Notes under the pieces: generated by a model
Told to the model about the DNA's origin: nothing
The model's input: only the letters and a program-made list of their open reading frames with translations
Database searches by the model: none
Shown: positions 49,073-60,482 of the stretch, piece after piece
Layout of the letters: every line of letters starts with the position of its first letter
How positions within the stretch are numbered: position 1 is the first letter of the stretch
Position numbers and translations under genes: made by a program
From: Methanoregula sp.
Lineage (GTDB): Archaea > Halobacteriota > Methanomicrobia > Methanomicrobiales > Methanospirillaceae
Direction: 5' to 3'
Assembly: GCF_028712425.1 (NCBI RefSeq)
Contig: NZ_JAQTQD010000017.1
Location: forward strand, 1 to 60,486
Length of the DNA stretch: 60,486 nt

Positions 49073-51289
49073 TCATTTGTACTCCCACCTGAGCGGGTCG
49101 CGGTCGCGGCGACGCTTCTTCAGGTAGCCGGCGGTTGCCACGGTAAGGATGGCGATTGCGGCGATGATCTCTGCGGCAAGGAAGAGCGGGTTCTTCCAGA
49201 GTACTTTCATTCCCGGTCCGGTTGTGTTGCTGACGGCTGGCATGATGGATTCCTCCTGCGGTGCAGACAGCACCTCCCCGGTCGGCCACGGGGTGATCCG
49301 CACCTTCAGTTTCGTGGGTTCGGTGGGGACCGGCGTTGCGGTTGGTGTTGGCGTTGCGGTCCCCGTTGCTGTGACGGCTGGAATTGCTGTGGGGGGCGGG
49401 TAATAGGTATAACTGTCGCTCCCGCCATAATACGACCAGGACGACGAGGAACTGGTTGTCGTCACCGGCGAGTATGCGGTCAGGACGAACGTCGAGAGGC
49501 CGGTGGGGGAGATGGCGACGAAGTAGTCGTTGCCGTCCGCAGCGCAGAGGCCGGTCCATTCTGTGGTCAGGAACGTGACCGTGCCTTCGTCCGAGCGGTG
49601 CATGACCGCAATGCGGGACGTGCCGCCGTTGTCCTCGACCCAGGTGTGGTTGACCGCCATGGTTACGTTGGCGCTCTGGATGATGCCGCCGGTGCCGGAA
49701 TTGGCGATATCGGTCTTGGTGAAGGTGACCGTATAGGCGGTAGCGATGATGTTCTTCTTCTCCGATACGGCGACGGCGGTGAACGAGCTCCAGACCGATG
49801 CGTCGGGATCGGACGTAATGGTACTGTTGATCGCGGCAGAGCTATTCGGGAGCTGCGAGAGCGTAAGAGTAAGCGTCACATTCGGATTGCCGAGCGACTC
49901 GATACCTACGCTGACATTGGTGGCAACGGCCTCCACGCTCTTTACTGTGCCGGTCACGTTCCCGGAGTCGGTCACGGCAGGAGCATCGAGCGTGATCTTC
50001 AGGTGGTCCCAGGCAGTGCCGACATTGTCCACCGTGACGATATTTGTGTTTGTACTGTCGATGGTTGCATTGGCGGCGCTGATGTTGATGCCCTGGCTCG
50101 ATCCGGTGGCGTTTGTCACGATACCCGGGAGTTCGAAGGTCTTGTTCGTGCTGACCGGGTTGATTACTGTGATGTAGTTTGTCCGGGTCTTCGTATCGGA
50201 GCCCTTGCTGTTGGTTGCGTTGAGTTTGACCGAATAGGTGCCGGCTTTCGTGTAGGTGTAGTCCGGGATCTGTTTTGCTGAGGTACCGTCATCGCCGAAA
50301 TCCCATGCCCAGCCGGTCGGCGTGTTGAGCGAGGTGTCCCTGAACCTCGGGTTGAACGGTGCGATGCCTTTGGTCTGGCTGGCGGCGAAGTCCGCGACCG
50401 GGGGGATCACCTTCGCGGTGACGGAGTACCCGCTATCGATGGGGTTGGTCCAGCCCATGCCGGACGAGGCACGGTACCCGTACACGTTGAAGACGGCGTT
50501 GTCCGGGAGGTTTGTGAACGCGTAGTCGACCCGGACCGCGCCGTTGTTCTTCAGGCCCGGACTGCTGCTGAGCAGGCCGGATCTCGTGTCGATGAACATC
50601 AGCCGGTACTGGCTGGCCGGGCTGTCCATCTCCTCTCCCTTGAAGAGCGGGTAGTCCGCGTTGCCCTGCGTGGGCTTCCAGCTCTGCGGGCCATAGAAGA
50701 GGTCGGCTTTCGTGAACGTCTGGTCGAGCGCGGTGGACTGGTAGGTGTAACTACCCGAAGCCGGCGCGGAGCCGGTCGGCGTCCACGTGTACCCGCTGGT
50801 CTTGATCCGGGCCGTGAAATCGTCCGGGATGGTGCCGTTGACCGCCAGCAGGAGGACGACCTCGTCTTCGTACGAATCCCCGGTGATATAGAATGTCCCG
50901 GACTGGCTGTTCGTTATCGTGACCTTGTTGGACGTGTCTGCAGGATCGGTCGAGATGTGGATCGCGGAGAGGCCCCCCGAACCGCCCTGAATGTAATACG
51001 TGCCGTTGCCGTTGTCGTCCCACCGGATGCCGTCGTGGTTCGCTGTCCGGATGTATGTCTTGTTGTTACCCGGGACCGGCCCGGTGGCGTTGACCACGTA
51101 CACGAGGCCGGCCTTGGTTATCGTGCTGCTTCCCCCGGCATTGGCTGCCGTGAGCTTGACCGGGTAGGTCCCGGCCGAGCCGTAGGTGTGTGTCGGGTTC
51201 ACCGGCTTGTCGAATGTCACGATCCCGCCGTCCCCGAAGTCCCAGGACCATGACGTCGGGCTGTTGGTCGAGGTGTCGGTGAAGGTCAC
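49073..51289 (-). CDS. C-terminal part of giant PKD surface protein (out of frame)
   Basis: From the first Met at 51289 the 738-aa product starts inside a PKD domain (TNSPTSWSWDFGDGG) with no signal peptide. It then has an extracellular domain like that of 55,202-56,155 (YTWTPTG..., QSWKPTQGNADYPLFKGEEM), a second PKD domain (GWAWDFGDDGTS), a Ser/Thr-rich region, a TATPTPTATPVPT stalk, a C-terminal transmembrane helix (FLAAEIIAAIAILTVATAGY) and a basic end. The frame is continuous upstream with PTASFTATQVNGVAPLAVTF across the G10 tract of 51,338-51,347, where the gene before it shifts out. It is therefore the second half of one gene with 51,286-54,861, in different reading phase. Confidence 0.8.
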   Translation of the reverse strand: MTFTDTSTNSPTSWSWDFGDGGIVTFDKPVNPTHTYGSAGTYPVKLTAANAGGSSTITKAGLVYVVNATGPVPGNNKTYIRTANHDGIRWDDNGNGTYYIQGGSGGLSAIHISTDPADTSNKVTITNSQSGTFYITGDSYEDEVVLLLAVNGTIPDDFTARIKTSGYTWTPTGSAPASGSYTYQSTALDQTFTKADLFYGPQSWKPTQGNADYPLFKGEEMDSPASQYRLMFIDTRSGLLSSSPGLKNNGAVRVDYAFTNLPDNAVFNVYGYRASSGMGWTNPIDSGYSVTAKVIPPVADFAASQTKGIAPFNPRFRDTSLNTPTGWAWDFGDDGTSAKQIPDYTYTKAGTYSVKLNATNSKGSDTKTRTNYITVINPVSTNKTFELPGIVTNATGSSQGINISAANATIDSTNTNIVTVDNVGTAWDHLKITLDAPAVTDSGNVTGTVKSVEAVATNVSVGIESLGNPNVTLTLTLSQLPNSSAAINSTITSDPDASVWSSFTAVAVSEKKNIIATAYTVTFTKTDIANSGTGGIIQSANVTMAVNHTWVEDNGGTSRIAVMHRSDEGTVTFLTTEWTGLCAADGNDYFVAISPTGLSTFVLTAYSPVTTTSSSSSWSYYGGSDSYTYYPPPTAIPAVTATGTATPTPTATPVPTEPTKLKVRITPWPTGEVLSAPQEESIMPAVSNTTGPGMKVLWKNPLFLAAEIIAAIAILTVATAGYLKKRRRDRDPLRWEYK

Positions 51290-54200
51290 GGCCAGCGGGG
51301 CGACGCCGTTGACCTGGGTGGCGGTGAAGGAGGCGGTGGGGGGGGGGTGGGTGTGCCGGAGTTGCCGCAGGTGGTACCGGAGCCGGCGCAGAAGTCGTCG
51401 ACGTAGGAATTTACCGCTATATACTTTCTATCGAACGCTACCTGAACCGGATGGACCCCGGTATACCCGGTTATCGGGATCGTATACTGGTTCCAGCCGG
51501 TCTGGATTATACCGGGGGCCTGAACTGTTTCTCCATCTATATTAATATTGAAACTCTGCGTTACGCTGCAGGACCCACCATACCCCCAGAACGAGATGAC
51601 GGTAGCATCCGTCAGATCGACGTACTGGATCACATAACTATCCGCAACACTGCCATCACTATTCAAGAATGCCGAATAGCTGCCGGTATGGGCTGTAGCT
51701 GACGATACGGATGCATATTTCCCTGTTGTCCATTCGGTACTATCGCCGGTCTCGAACCCTGGGTTGGCGAACTGGTTTGATCTTCCGTTCGATGCCACCG
51801 CGATAAGACTGGACTTGAGAACACTGTTACCTCCGCCACCGTTTGTGACCGTAAGATTTACCGAATACGTTCCTAGTGCATACCAGTGGAGCGGATTCTG
51901 TTCGGTTGAATTTGTGCCGTCCCCGAAGTCCCACAACCATGTAACCGGAAAATTGGTTGAGGTATCGTTGAACTGGACCGCTATAGGAGAGGTGCCCGTT
52001 GTGACATTTACGATGAAGTCAGCAACAGGCACCGGTGGAACAGTGAGCGTTATATCCTGCGTCCTGGAATTGGTGCCTTTTACATTCGTCACTGTGAGAT
52101 TCACCGTATAGGTGCCCGCATTCGTGTACATATGGACCACGTTCTGATCGAAGGAGGATGTACCGTCGCCGAAGTCCCAGTGCCAGGACTGCGGAACGTT
52201 TGTTGTTATGTCTGTGAACCGGATTGGAGACCGGTTGTGCCATCCGTAAGGCGTATCTCTGGTGAAATCTGCCTTCGGGACATCGGGAATGCCAATGACC
52301 GAATACCCGCTGGGGCCATAGGTGGAGCCCCCTGTGACATCGTTGGTCATGATCATAGTGCCGTGGGAACTGGCAAGATACCACCCGTATGCATTGAATA
52401 CAGCAAAACTCGTCAGGTTGGTGAACGCATATTCAATCTTGATATTATGATACGCTTTCCCGGCGTTCAGGTCGATGAACATGATCCGGAACTGGTTGAT
52501 GGGATCGGCCTGGTCCTCCCCGTAATAGATCGGATATCCATCGGGTTTCCAGCTCTGCGGACCGTAGATGAAATCGTCCTTTGTGAAGGTCTGATCCACG
52601 GCACCTTCTTTGTAATTCCATTCAGTAGGTGCGCCTCCGTTGGTATAGGCAGGACCGAAAGGTGTCCAGTTGTCCCCGCTCGACCGGATATGGACACGGA
52701 AATCATCGGGGATCGTCCCGTTGACGGCGAGCATCAGGATTCCCTCGGGCATGGTCGGCTGGCCCCCGGTATGGGTGAAATAGAATGTACCGGACTGGTT
52801 GGTGGTGGTGGTTATATCAGAGACGGAGTTTCCCGATGAGATGTGCAGGGCGTTCAGTCCCCCCATCGTGGCGAAAGAGTAGGTATTGGGGACGTAGACG
52901 GGATTGGTGCCGTTTAGATCGAACTTGACACCTTCATCGTTAGCAACGTAAAGGTATGGATAGGCTGGATCGATTGGGCCCGGTGTCACAATATCAATAA
53001 AGCTATTTTTTAAACGGGAACTTGTTCCGAATACATTAGTCGCCGAGAGGTTGATAGAATAATTTCCGACCGCTGAATAGGTATGTGTCGGGTTCTGATC
53101 GGTTGATGTAGTACCGTCTCCAAAGTCCCAGAGCCATGCAGTTGGAGAGTGAATCGAGATATCATTGAACTGAATGGTCTGAAATACAACTCCAACTCTG
53201 GGAGATGCAGTAAACGATATTACCGGTGCTGTCGAATATGGGGTGATGTAATCGGTCTTACTGGTGGTGTTGGTACCGACAGAATTTGTTGCGGTGAGGT
53301 TAACTGTATAAGTAGTAGTTGACGATCCAGATGCGGTGAATATATGAACAGGGTTCTGCTCGGTTGATGTTGTTCCATCCCCAAATTCCCAGTACCAGGA
53401 TGTCGGTGCCCCGGTTGACTGATCGGTGAACGAAACGGACAGCGGGCTTTTTCCGGAAACAGGGGTTGCCGTGAAAGCTGCTGTCGGGGGAGAATACACG
53501 CTGATGTATTTTGTCTTGATGAGAGTATTCATACCATTACTGTTGGTGATGGTCAGATTGACGGAATAGACTCCCCCATAGGAATAAGTATGCGGGGGGT
53601 TTTGTTCATCCGATGTCACGCCATCCCCAAAGTCCCAGTGCCATGCGGTGACAGTGAGGGGCGATGTGCCGGTGAACTGGACGGTGAGAGGTGCTGGACC
53701 GGCAATCTGGTCGGCAGTGAATGTTACTACGCCGGGGAATGCGCGCAACCTCCTATCAAAACTTGAAGCATAAACCGTTCCATCCGCACTAATTGCGGGC
53801 GATCCATAATTTGTATTAGCTGTTTTATAGGACCATTTAAGGATTGCATCCGGAGTAAGGCCGTAGATGTTACCCTCCCACGTTATAAAATAGATTGTTC
53901 CATCCGCCCCTATAACGGGGGCTCCATATATCTTTCCACAGTTATATGACCATTTCAGGGTACCATCCCGGTTCCATGCATAAAGGGCACTCGTACCCCC
54001 AACATAGATCGTTCCATCTTTCGCAATTGCAGGAGATCCAAATGTAAGTGCTCCTGACGTATTTTTCCATTTCAGGGTACCATCAGGATTCCATGCATAG
54101 ACGTTACTATCTCCACTACTTCCAATATAGGTGGTCCCATCCGATCCGATTGCCGCAGATCCTTTAACTGCTCCTGAAGTATTGCTCCACTTCAGGATAC

Positions 54201-54861
54201 CATCAGAGTTATATGCATAAAAGGTGCTTGTGGTCTGGCTACCAATATATATGGTCCCATCCGGCCCAATCGCAGGAGTGGCATAATTTGCTGTCCCTGT
54301 GGTATTTTTCCATTTCAGGGTTCCTTGTGAATCGAAAGCATAAAGCGCATCGGACGCTACATAGATCGTACCATCAGCACCAATCGTCGGACTGCCATAT
54401 ATTTCTACACCAATACTGGTAGAGGATTTCCATTTTTTTGTTCCATCTGAGGCATATACTGCATAGACATACGTATCCTGATCTCCAAAATAGAGGATAT
54501 CGTTCGACCCTATTGCCACAGGCCCATATATATTCCCCCAACCGTACATTGTTTTTGGGACTATCCATTTTAATGTTCCATCCGTGTTTATTGCTCGGAG
54601 ATTCGCACTTTTATCTCCATAATAGATCGTTCCATCGGATCCAATAACCGGACTCTGATACTGAAAACCTATGTTGGGATTATAAGACCATTTTGGTGTT
54701 CCGGACTGTGAGCCAGTAAAGGGGGATTGCCCGGTATTGTTGAGATCGTAGCCAGACTTCGGCCATGGAGAACTGGCAAGTTCTGCGGTAACCGGCATAA
54801 TAAAGAATGTAAGATAGATCAGCAGAATGATGGCTGCCACTCGAAACAGCCGCGGTTTCAT
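51286..54861 (-). CDS. Giant surface protein, N-terminal part: beta-propeller and PKD repeats
   Basis: The 1191-aa product has a signal peptide (VAAIILLIYLTFFIMPVTA) and about nine PQQ/outer-surface beta-propeller repeats (pattern SP.IG.DGTIY.G...YA.NPDGTLKW, residues 40-370). Three PKD domains (WDFGDG, 375-630), a shared extracellular domain (about 640-850), two more PKD domains (870-1035) and a beta-sandwich carbohydrate-binding-like domain (NPGFETGDSTEWTTG, 1045-1165) follow. Its last 20 residues, PPPPPPSPPPRSTASPRWP, are translated out of phase after the ten-C run. It should be an exposed adhesion or envelope protein. Confidence 0.85.
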   Translation of the reverse strand: MKPRLFRVAAIILLIYLTFFIMPVTAELASSPWPKSGYDLNNTGQSPFTGSQSGTPKWSYNPNIGFQYQSPVIGSDGTIYYGDKSANLRAINTDGTLKWIVPKTMYGWGNIYGPVAIGSNDILYFGDQDTYVYAVYASDGTKKWKSSTSIGVEIYGSPTIGADGTIYVASDALYAFDSQGTLKWKNTTGTANYATPAIGPDGTIYIGSQTTSTFYAYNSDGILKWSNTSGAVKGSAAIGSDGTTYIGSSGDSNVYAWNPDGTLKWKNTSGALTFGSPAIAKDGTIYVGGTSALYAWNRDGTLKWSYNCGKIYGAPVIGADGTIYFITWEGNIYGLTPDAILKWSYKTANTNYGSPAISADGTVYASSFDRRLRAFPGVVTFTADQIAGPAPLTVQFTGTSPLTVTAWHWDFGDGVTSDEQNPPHTYSYGGVYSVNLTITNSNGMNTLIKTKYISVYSPPTAAFTATPVSGKSPLSVSFTDQSTGAPTSWYWEFGDGTTSTEQNPVHIFTASGSSTTTYTVNLTATNSVGTNTTSKTDYITPYSTAPVISFTASPRVGVVFQTIQFNDISIHSPTAWLWDFGDGTTSTDQNPTHTYSAVGNYSINLSATNVFGTSSRLKNSFIDIVTPGPIDPAYPYLYVANDEGVKFDLNGTNPVYVPNTYSFATMGGLNALHISSGNSVSDITTTTNQSGTFYFTHTGGQPTMPEGILMLAVNGTIPDDFRVHIRSSGDNWTPFGPAYTNGGAPTEWNYKEGAVDQTFTKDDFIYGPQSWKPDGYPIYYGEDQADPINQFRIMFIDLNAGKAYHNIKIEYAFTNLTSFAVFNAYGWYLASSHGTMIMTNDVTGGSTYGPSGYSVIGIPDVPKADFTRDTPYGWHNRSPIRFTDITTNVPQSWHWDFGDGTSSFDQNVVHMYTNAGTYTVNLTVTNVKGTNSRTQDITLTVPPVPVADFIVNVTTGTSPIAVQFNDTSTNFPVTWLWDFGDGTNSTEQNPLHWYALGTYSVNLTVTNGGGGNSVLKSSLIAVASNGRSNQFANPGFETGDSTEWTTGKYASVSSATAHTGSYSAFLNSDGSVADSYVIQYVDLTDATVISFWGYGGSCSVTQSFNINIDGETVQAPGIIQTGWNQYTIPITGYTGVHPVQVAFDRKYIAVNSYVDDFCAGSGTTCGNSGTPTPPPPPPSPPPRSTASPRWP
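51338..51347. repeat. Ten-G homopolymer, frameshift hinge
   Basis: Ten consecutive G on the plus strand (C on the coding strand) occupy 51,338-51,347. With ten the upstream frame ends at a stop about 56 bases later. With eleven (or eight) it would continue into the PKD frame of the downstream half. Such tracts are classical slipped-strand mispairing sites, but also the commonest place for sequencing errors. Confidence 0.9.
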
Positions 54862-55201: not shown

Positions 55202-56155
55202 TTATGAGGTTATATTAACCTTCCATCCGCTACATAACGTCGTATCAACGTCTTCATTCAAGTAGTACACCTTATTCAGCCAGTTGATAGCCGGGGGCAA
55301 TGACGATCCATCTTTTTGGGAGATTGTTTTATTGTTATACGCATAGGCATTGAAGGCAATGATGGAATCATTTGATAAACTCCCTTTCGTGATGTTGTAC
55401 GTGATTTTTGTCGCATTGTTATTCGGAAGAAGAGTACGTTTTTGGGTAACATTCCACCAGGTACCATTGATTGTTCCCACCTTGGTGTCAATGGCCCACA
55501 ACTTGAAGTATTTATCCCCGCTCACGCTCATATCCTGGCCGCAGTAGATCGGGTAGTCTGCAGTTGGTGCAAATTTCCATTTCTGGAATAAATCAACAGA
55601 ATCGTTCTCCAGGAAATCCGCTGAGGTGAATAACTTTGCACTGAGTGGTGTCTCGTAATTGACCGTGGAGGGGGGTGACCCAGAGCTAATCGGAGTCCAG
55701 GTATACCCGCTTGCCGAGATGTTAATGGATACACTATCGATCTCTGTTGTAGAATTGTTGATACTGTTGACCGCTATGAGAAGGATAATGTTATCCTGTC
55801 CGCCTTTTCCCCCGGTATCCGTTACATAGAATGTACCATTCAGATCGGCACTGGTTTTTTCATAGCAAGTTCCTTTGGCATTGGCGGGAGCGTCACTGTC
55901 CGCAATGTGGAGCGCATTCATCCCCCCCGTGGGATTCGTCAGGTTGACGTAATAATACGGGTTACCCAGATACGTGCTATCGTACTTGATGAGGGGATTT
56001 GCCATTGGGACGTACGTGTGGTTGTTGTTATGCGCGGTGTTCGTGTAGATTACATTACTCGCCGCCACCGGCCCAACCGCCAGCGCGACGAACAGGAGGA
56101 CGACCGCAGAGGCCATCCACCACATTCTGTTCAAATCTTTGTTTCCTTTTGCCAT
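55202..56155 (-). CDS. Secreted protein with extracellular domain shared with giant protein
   Basis: Start at ATG 56155, set by GGAGGT seven bases upstream; the longer frame reads through the promoter. The 317-aa protein has a signal peptide (MWWMASAVVLLFVALAVGPVAA), then one domain of about 270 residues with GGMNALHIADSD, GTFYVTDTGGKGG, ASGYTWTPISSG, KWKFAPTADYPIYCGQDM. The same pattern occurs once in each half of the giant PKD protein. No C-terminal anchor is seen. It probably acts outside the cell. Its promoter, leader and signal peptide are duplicated at 58,069 and 59,797. Confidence 0.8.
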   Translation of the reverse strand: MAKGNKDLNRMWWMASAVVLLFVALAVGPVAASNVIYTNTAHNNNHTYVPMANPLIKYDSTYLGNPYYYVNLTNPTGGMNALHIADSDAPANAKGTCYEKTSADLNGTFYVTDTGGKGGQDNIILLIAVNSINNSTTEIDSVSINISASGYTWTPISSGSPPSTVNYETPLSAKLFTSADFLENDSVDLFQKWKFAPTADYPIYCGQDMSVSGDKYFKLWAIDTKVGTINGTWWNVTQKRTLLPNNNATKITYNITKGSLSNDSIIAFNAYAYNNKTISQKDGSSLPPAINWLNKVYYLNEDVDTTLCSGWKVNITS

Positions 56156-56237
56156 AGTCTGTACCTCCGTGCAGGGCACCGCCCCGCGCGCGTCAACAAA
56201 AAACCATTGATCATGGCAGTTTATTAACAATGAAACA

Positions 56238-56262
56238 TTGATCAAAATATGACACGATATAT
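56238..56262 (-). promoter_or_regulatory. Conserved promoter: TATA with TTGATCAA palindrome
   Basis: On the minus strand, GATATATCGTG gives a TATA element (near 56,252-56,262) followed by CATATTTTGATCAA. The perfect palindrome TTGATCAA at 56,238-56,245 lies close to the expected start site. The same block is repeated at 60,027-60,050 and, altered, near 58,262-58,290. The palindrome may be a repressor site shared by the copies. Confidence 0.55.
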
Positions 56263-56532
56263 CTTTCGTTTACATGAAAAGTTTGAATATAATTTGTTTT
56301 TGAGATTCCTGCGGCATATTATGCCGGATCGATAATTCTCGCCGTGAACGATCGGATGGAACGGGAGCGGTGCACCGGGGAAAGGATTATGAAGAGGGCC
56401 GGGCGGAAGCAAGGGGGATACGGCGGGGCCAGGGAGTGCATGCGACCCGGCAGGGGATGATACTCCGGCGACTCCCTCACAAATCCTTATCTGATACACG
56501 ATACAACATAAGACACAAAGGTGCTCGAAAAA

Positions 56533-56694
56533 ATGCCGGCAAAAAAATTCAAACCGGAAGACGTTATCGGGAAACCCTACCGGAGAGGCCTGCTCCCGTA
56601 CGGGGGTGGAATTGTTCGGGGAAAGATCGCATTTGCAGTCAGTGAGGAAGAGCACAACGCCGATATGAAACGATTGAAAGCTCTTCGTCCATGA
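56533..56694 (+). CDS. 53-aa small protein, copy 1
   Basis: The frame begins MPAKKFKPEDVIGKPYRRGL and continues LPYGGGIVRGKIAFAVSEEE, ending in a basic helix (MKRLKALRP). A second copy at 60,321-60,482 keeps the frame and length with conservative changes (for example GGIVRG to GAVTRG), which supports real translation and selection. A GGTG-containing purine run precedes the ATG. No family is recognised; it could be a small nucleic-acid-binding protein or antitoxin. Confidence 0.7.
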   Translation: MPAKKFKPEDVIGKPYRRGLLPYGGGIVRGKIAFAVSEEEHNADMKRLKALRP

Positions 56695-58068: not shown

Positions 58069-58185
58069 TCATTGTAGGGAAATAATCTTATCCGCCGCCA
58101 CCGGCACCACTGCCGCAGCGACGAACAGGAGGACGACCGCAGAGGCCATCCACCACATTCTGTTCATGTGTTCTTGTTTCTTCAT
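58069..58185 (-). pseudogene. Signal-peptide fragment, cassette copy 2
   Basis: From ATG 58185 (GGAGGT upstream) the 38-codon frame reads MKKQEHMNRMWWMASAVVLL, then FVAAAVVPVAADK and an early stop. It copies the leader and signal peptide of the 55,202-56,155 protein but has lost the mature protein. Its upstream promoter-like region continues to about 58,330 with lower identity. Confidence 0.75.
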
Positions 58186-58573
58186 GTTCTGTACCTCCAC
58201 GCAGGGCACCGCCCCGCGCGCGTTAACAAGTTGCTTTTGATGCCTGCAAATTGTTAAACAGAAAGTATTGATCGCATATGAGGTTATATATTTATCGACA
58301 GAGTAAAAAATAAGAATATACTTTATTTTTGAAATTAACGCGCGATAATTATCCGGATTGCCTGCCGGACGAGTGGCGCGCCAAGGGGAACCGGGGGACG
58401 AATGGGGGGAAATGTTTTTATGGATGGGCGGGGGATCTGGTTGTCCGGGTGATGTCACATAAAATGCCCCGAGCGTGCGGGGTCGGAGGCAGGAATGCAT
58501 ATCACACCCTTCACGTTCGTTCACGTTCCGCAAACATTTTGTTCATGAAACGTGAACCTATTGTTCAGGAATT
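58186..58573. other. Diverged promoter/leader copy, no gene
   Basis: The first 145 bases resemble the leader of the copies at 56,155 and 59,943 (ACGCAGGGCACCGCCCCGCG and a TATA-like GGTTATATATTTATC near 58,280). The remainder, 58,330-58,573, is not similar. An 82-codon ORF is present but has no support. The short inverted block GTTCACGTTCCG occurs before the nucleotidyltransferase gene. Confidence 0.55.
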
Positions 58574-59796: not shown

Positions 59797-59943
59797 TCAA
59801 ACGACTGCCGGATGCGAGCAAAGGCTCATCTCTTGGGCTTTATCATATTCCCCCGCCACCGGCATAACCGCCGTAACGACGAACAGGAGGACGACCGCAG
59901 AGGCCATCCACCACATTCTGTTCATGTGTTCTTGTTTCTTCAT
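59797..59943 (-). pseudogene. Signal-peptide fragment, cassette copy 3
   Basis: ATG 59943 with GGAGGT upstream gives MKKQEHMNRMWWMASAVVLL, the same signal peptide as copies 1 and 2, then loses similarity after MPVAGEYDKAQ and stops at 48 residues. The regions upstream (59,944-60,320) are strongly conserved with copy 1, so the promoter could still be active. Confidence 0.75.
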
Positions 59944-60482
59944 GTTCTGTACCTCCGCGCAGGGCACCGCCCCACGCGCGCGTTAAAAATTAGTAATTGG
60001 TTTTACCAATTTTTAACATCAAACTGTTGATCAAAATATGACACGATATATCTTTCAACTGAGTGAAAAATAAGAATATAATTTGTTTTGGAGATTCCTG
60101 CGGCATATCGGGCCGGATAAAAAATCCTCGCCGTGAACGATCGGATGGACCGGGAGCGGTGCACCGGGGAAAGGATTATGAAGAGGGCCGGGCGGAAGCA
60201 AGGGGGATACGGCGGGCCAAGGAGTGCATGCGACCCGGCAGGGGATGATACTCCGGCGACTCCCTCACAAATCCTTATCTGATACACGATACAACATAAG
60301 ATATAACGGTGCTCGAAAAAATGCCGGCAAAAAAATTCAAACCGGAAGATGTTATTGGCAAACCCTACCGGAGAGGCCTGCTCCCGTATGGGGGTGCAGT
60401 CACCCGGGGAAAAATCTCATCGGCAATCAGCGAGGAAGAATTCCGGGCAACCATGAAACGGCTGAAAGCAATCATTCCATGA
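59852..60482. repeat. Promoter-leader-signal-peptide cassette, copy 3
   Basis: This stretch matches 56,040-56,694 with high identity; long identical blocks occur on both sides of ACCGGGGAAAGGATTATGAA and ATACACGATACAACATAAGA. It covers the truncated signal-peptide frame and the second 53-aa gene. TTGATCAA recurs at 60,027-60,034. A hairpin, AATTGGT-TTT-ACCAATT, is present near 59,994-60,010 and is absent in copy 1. Confidence 0.85.
60321..60482 (+). CDS. 53-aa small protein, copy 2
   Basis: The product is MPAKKFKPEDVIGKPYRRGL followed by LPYGGAVTRGKISSAISEEE and MKRLKAIIP. It is the paralogue of the protein at 56,533-56,694 and has the same length. Differences are mostly synonymous in the first half and conservative in the second. 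It ends four bases before the window edge. Confidence 0.7.
   Translation: MPAKKFKPEDVIGKPYRRGLLPYGGAVTRGKISSAISEEEFRATMKRLKAIIP

Follow-up and report, generated by a model that had tools for sequence, protein, structure and literature searches.

Homopolymer phase variation has been described for surface genes of bacteria such as Neisseria, Campylobacter and Helicobacter, where the length of a homopolymer sets the reading frame of an exported surface-protein gene, the same relationship that is seen at the locus reported here. A G/C run of ten falls in the length range where phase-variable tracts of bacteria switch, and exported surface proteins are the type of product typical of such switches. 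The poly(A) run of Listeria inlA is a further case in which a homopolymer within an exported surface-protein gene sets the frame (PMC2831843). In the same study, regulatory runs were argued to lie near the 5′ end, poly(C) and poly(G) runs were generally under-represented and not 5′-biased, and over-representation of poly(A)/poly(T) runs of 8–9 bases was, among the archaea included, confined to 'Candidatus Methanoregula'. In the open-access literature searched, the coverage of which is incomplete, no paper was found that describes phase variation by homopolymer for a cell-surface gene of an archaeon; the archaeal phase variation cited there is a system of the DNA-rearrangement type in the haloarchaeal virus phiCh1. 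Should the tract described below switch, a mechanism known from bacteria would have an archaeal example.

The window, i.e., the whole stretch of Methanoregula sp. DNA analysed (60,486 nt), contains a homopolymer of ten bases inside a large gene (Table 1). A preliminary description had proposed that this tract divides a single gene between two frames (1191 and 738 aa), and that adding one base or removing two would fuse the halves into about 1,900 residues. Both points were confirmed on the sequence, and the gene is whole in a related genome. Recomputation of the gene with 8, 9, 10 or 11 C's gave a single frame of 1928 residues with 8 and of 1929 residues with 11, and broken frames with 9 and 10, showing that tract length sets the frame (open at 8 or 11 C's, closed at 9 or 10). 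The 5′ frame starts at an ATG (nt 54861) and reaches its stop about 20 codons beyond the tract, which is positioned mid-gene, 61% along its length. The 738-aa ORF (nt 49073–51289) begins at an internal GTG and is in the frame neighbouring that of the 1191-aa ORF. Judged by eye from the translations, the 1191-aa ORF has a signal-like N-terminus, and the C-terminus of the 738-aa ORF consists of a hydrophobic segment followed by KKRRRDRDPLRWEYK.

Table 1. Features of the interrupted surface-protein gene, with positions in the window.
Feature	Position (nt)	Strand	Evidence
Whole gene: giant secreted, C-terminally anchored surface protein (predicted), PQQ/BamB-like beta-propeller and PKD domains, frame broken once	49073..54861	-	ORFs; Pfam; collinear unbroken frame in G033
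5′ frame, 1191 aa: signal-like N-terminus, propeller, five PKD stretches, ~20 out-of-frame codons (PPPPPPSPPPRSTASPRWP), stop	51286..54861	-	
C10 run (G10 on the plus strand) within a Thr-Pro linker, lacking one base for an open frame	51338..51347	-	Frame recomputation; G033 linker one base longer, without homopolymer
3′ frame: two PKD stretches and predicted C-terminal membrane anchor; GTG 51289 within the first PKD domain	49073..51337	-	Pfam matches; no stop and coding-type differences relative to G033

Pfam matches in the 5′ part correspond to a PQQ/BamB-like propeller (PQQ_2, 76 bits; curated cut-off 27.6) and five PKD stretches (PKD_4, 250.5 bits; cut-off 27), while those in the 3′ part correspond to two PKD stretches (PKD_4, 103.7 bits; same cut-off). 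It is these domains that the gene specifies, and the earlier term 'adhesin' was a guess. The first PKD match of the 3′ part begins at about residue 8 of the frame read from just past the tract, and the GTG is residue 19. The domain therefore begins ahead of the first possible start, and the 3′ part does not form a separate gene. Two independent genes are ruled out by this PKD domain straddling the internal start, together with the single frame found in the related genome (G033). A misassembly fusing two PKD genes is also ruled out as the main cause, as collinearity between the window and G033 extends through the entire gene and the flanking sequence. Nor is the split exactly at the run a chance ORF pattern, because the sister genome has a conserved gene of 1.9 kilocodons whole. 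The broken frames are one gene of a Methanoregula-type methanogen, and its predicted product is a giant surface protein, secreted and membrane-anchored, with PKD and beta-propeller domains.

G033, a single contig from the same genus, is the closest genome in the comparison and provides one close ortholog for judging polarity and tract conservation. Its gene is collinear with that of the window, has an unbroken frame of 1976 codons and sits at the corresponding position next to dapA, dapB and asd. The junction sequence is GGC ACA CCC ACC CCC CCC CC- ACC GCC TCC TTC in the window and GGC ACA CCC ACT CCC TCC CCT GTC GCC TCC TTC in G033. The G033 linker (ACTCCCTCCCCTGTC) is exactly one base longer than the linker of the window and has no homopolymer. 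The tract is one base short, is absent from this one ortholog and, by this comparison, is lineage-specific. The simplest reading, in which polarity comes from a single close ortholog, has an open ancestral linker, a run produced by substitutions in the lineage of the window, and a frame break that amounts to one missing base.

The 3′ part contains no stop in about 750 codons when compared to G033, and its differences (56, 48 and 118 at the three codon positions) are concentrated at the third position, with dN 0.069 and dS 0.230. Consequently, the 3′ half was coding until very recently, or still is. This pattern would be expected after a recent slip, in a reversible state or from a consensus error, and speaks against an old pseudogene.

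The tract is probably a poly-C run that grew by chance in a Thr-Pro linker and is one base short because of a single recent slip in replication or an error in sequencing or assembly, without being an evolved on/off device. Point changes in the linker between two domains would have built the unbroken run in this lineage, and the missing base would represent one recent event, arising by replication slippage in the cells sequenced or during sequencing and assembly. The chances of a real slip and of a consensus error are about even. G/C runs of ten are where consensus errors concentrate on several sequencing platforms. If the deletion is real, carrier cells would make a 1191-residue protein without an anchor, and reversion would be possible, the change being in a homopolymer. 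The loss seems to be recent, and the tract unlikely to have been selected as a switch. An assembly generally ridden with indels is not supported. Over the ~35 kb of the window that are syntenic with G033, the interrupted gene is the only recognisable one whose frame is broken relative to that genome, the remaining multi-frame matches being antisense frames or short ORFs as judged by eye, and the runs of 8–9 bases examined in the genome break no gene.

By itself, a ten-base run is unremarkable in the window, where 0.38 are expected and 28 of 100 dinucleotide shuffles have at least one. Pattern searches of the 2.67-Mb genome gave 28 G/C runs of length 8, five of length 9, one of length 10 (the tract) and one of length 13. 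This is a chance-like tail with no set of similar loci, and no excess of long coding tracts over chance was found in the genome. The loci of about 20 runs of 8–9 bases were checked for split frames, and no other split gene was found among them. The run of 13 (G13, L146; G000:C10:32-44) lies in C-rich, repeat-like sequence, 32 bases away from the end of a contig, and perhaps marks an assembly break at a repeat. Three further candidates for split genes were rejected: a G8 run (L139) lies in the gap between SbcD-like and SbcC-like genes, in ribosome-binding position; another run (L130) is at a gene edge; and the frames around a third (L184) do not look like a gene.

Across the genus, 39 genomes carry from zero to about six runs of ten or more each. 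The tract is the only one of the 56 distinct runs examined that splits a gene. Nine of the 56 fall within frames that are recognisable genes or gene-like, and every one of these is in frame, where about two thirds of freely drifting coding runs would be expected to be out of frame; nine in-frame coding runs are a small sample, a point that counts against the chance-slip explanation. The products of these nine genes include, by Pfam, UbiA, a laminin-G protein, a VTT/DedA protein, a B-family DNA polymerase, NadA and an amidohydrolase, and four of the nine runs encode Pro/Thr linkers of exported or membrane proteins. In the genus, poly-C is repeatedly met in proline linkers: runs of 10–11 C's at four loci of other species (L163, L173, L186 and L210) encode TPPP or VPPP linkers of exported or membrane proteins, all in frame. 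In another genome (G016), in-frame G10 runs (L208 and L209) encode GGG within NadA and an amidohydrolase, and runs of ten are thus tolerated in housekeeping genes.

Phase variation, as the preliminary description suggested, would mean that, through slipped-strand mispairing at the tract, cells alternate between a full-length, anchored protein and a truncated one that is released or non-functional, and that this ability is selected. The structural half of the proposal stands, i.e., the tract breaks one gene, the halves of which a change of +1 or −2 joins into a protein of about 1,900 residues with a predicted anchor, but the switch itself is unlikely, given that G033 is without the tract, that runs in the genome are chance-like and that the other coding runs of ten or more in the genus, including those in housekeeping genes, are all in frame. 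A ten-base G/C run within an exported surface-protein gene, a frame restored by +1 or −2, a 3′ half that is still open and coding-like, and a fast-evolving, mosaic ectodomain (described below) would all suit a selected switch, and are set against a nearest ortholog without the tract, a genome without a set of similar loci, the mid-gene position of the tract and the presence of MutS and MutL. Both of these proteins are encoded in the genome, and their presence in general stabilises homopolymers. No second allele of the gene was found in the viral contigs searched. The case mainly shows that a gene split at a ten-base run says little, by itself, in favour of a switch. These comparisons take away the reasons to presume that tract length varies in cells, although it may still do so.

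About equally doubtful is a stable truncation, in which the 1191-residue released form would be the sole product of the gene in this species and the 3′ part would newly have become a pseudogene. It takes the assembled sequence as it stands, and agrees with the position of the first possible start of the 3′ frame (GTG 51289) inside a PKD domain, from which the 3′ half should not be made alone, but leaves some 750 codons without further damage and with coding-type substitutions, so that the loss would need to be very recent. Programmed slippage of ribosomes (−1) or of RNA polymerase on the C run, giving full-length protein from the C10 gene, is very improbable, for while the slippery run is present as consecutive CCC codons in the 5′ frame, from which a −1 ribosomal slip would enter the 3′ frame, the RNA downstream is not unusually structured (folding z-score −0.82, with 40 of 200 shuffles as good) and provides no stimulatory structure, and the site is not conserved, the G033 frame being continuous without the run and showing no conserved frame arrangement.

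Relative to G033, the neighbouring genes asd, dapB and dapA show dS values of 0.41–0.51, while much of the ectodomain has a dS of about 1 or more, or is saturated, with 47–72% amino-acid identity. Two parts are far less diverged, and in good part fall below the genomic background: an island at residues 664–843 (dS 0.09–0.65), and a stretch from about residue 1146, just ahead of the tract, to about residue 1690 (dS 0.00–0.32). These are rough NG86 estimates on 60-codon windows, and two control frames were left out, one without a value and one with an implausible value. Blocks more diverged than the neighbour genes alternate with less diverged blocks over nt 49112–54861. In the last ~190 bases, which code for the predicted anchor, about 150 (nt 49112–49261) are nearer to a second copy in G033 (94–96%) than to the G033 ortholog (56–76%). 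The gene is thus built of blocks with different histories, most simply through recombination between species and between copies, and gives a case of mosaic evolution in a giant surface protein of a methanogen. The tract is near one of the mosaic boundaries, and no evidence was seen of the tract causing that boundary.

Parts of another surface-protein gene are repeated elsewhere in the window. Three partly repeated stretches (nt 56058–56651, 58091–58358 and 59849–60439) carry the upstream region and leader of this gene (347-aa ORF, nt 55202–56245). The copy at nt 58069–58533 is truncated, and the window ends within the third copy (nt 59849–60439).

Compared to the phase-variable surface genes of bacteria, the tract of the window has no set of similar loci, lies mid-gene and is absent from the nearest ortholog. 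It also resembles the strain- or assembly-specific homopolymer frameshifts, whether authentic or consensus errors, which likewise show a single-base homopolymer deficit, an intact ortholog and no other damage; sequence alone cannot separate these from a real, unstable tract. The protein itself belongs with the PKD-domain (PF18911/PF00801) and PQQ-propeller surface proteins of Methanomicrobiales, its direct relatives in the genus and order, which have the same domain make-up, size and, as predicted here, C-terminal anchor. The closest of these relatives has neither the poly-C linker nor the frame break of the window copy.
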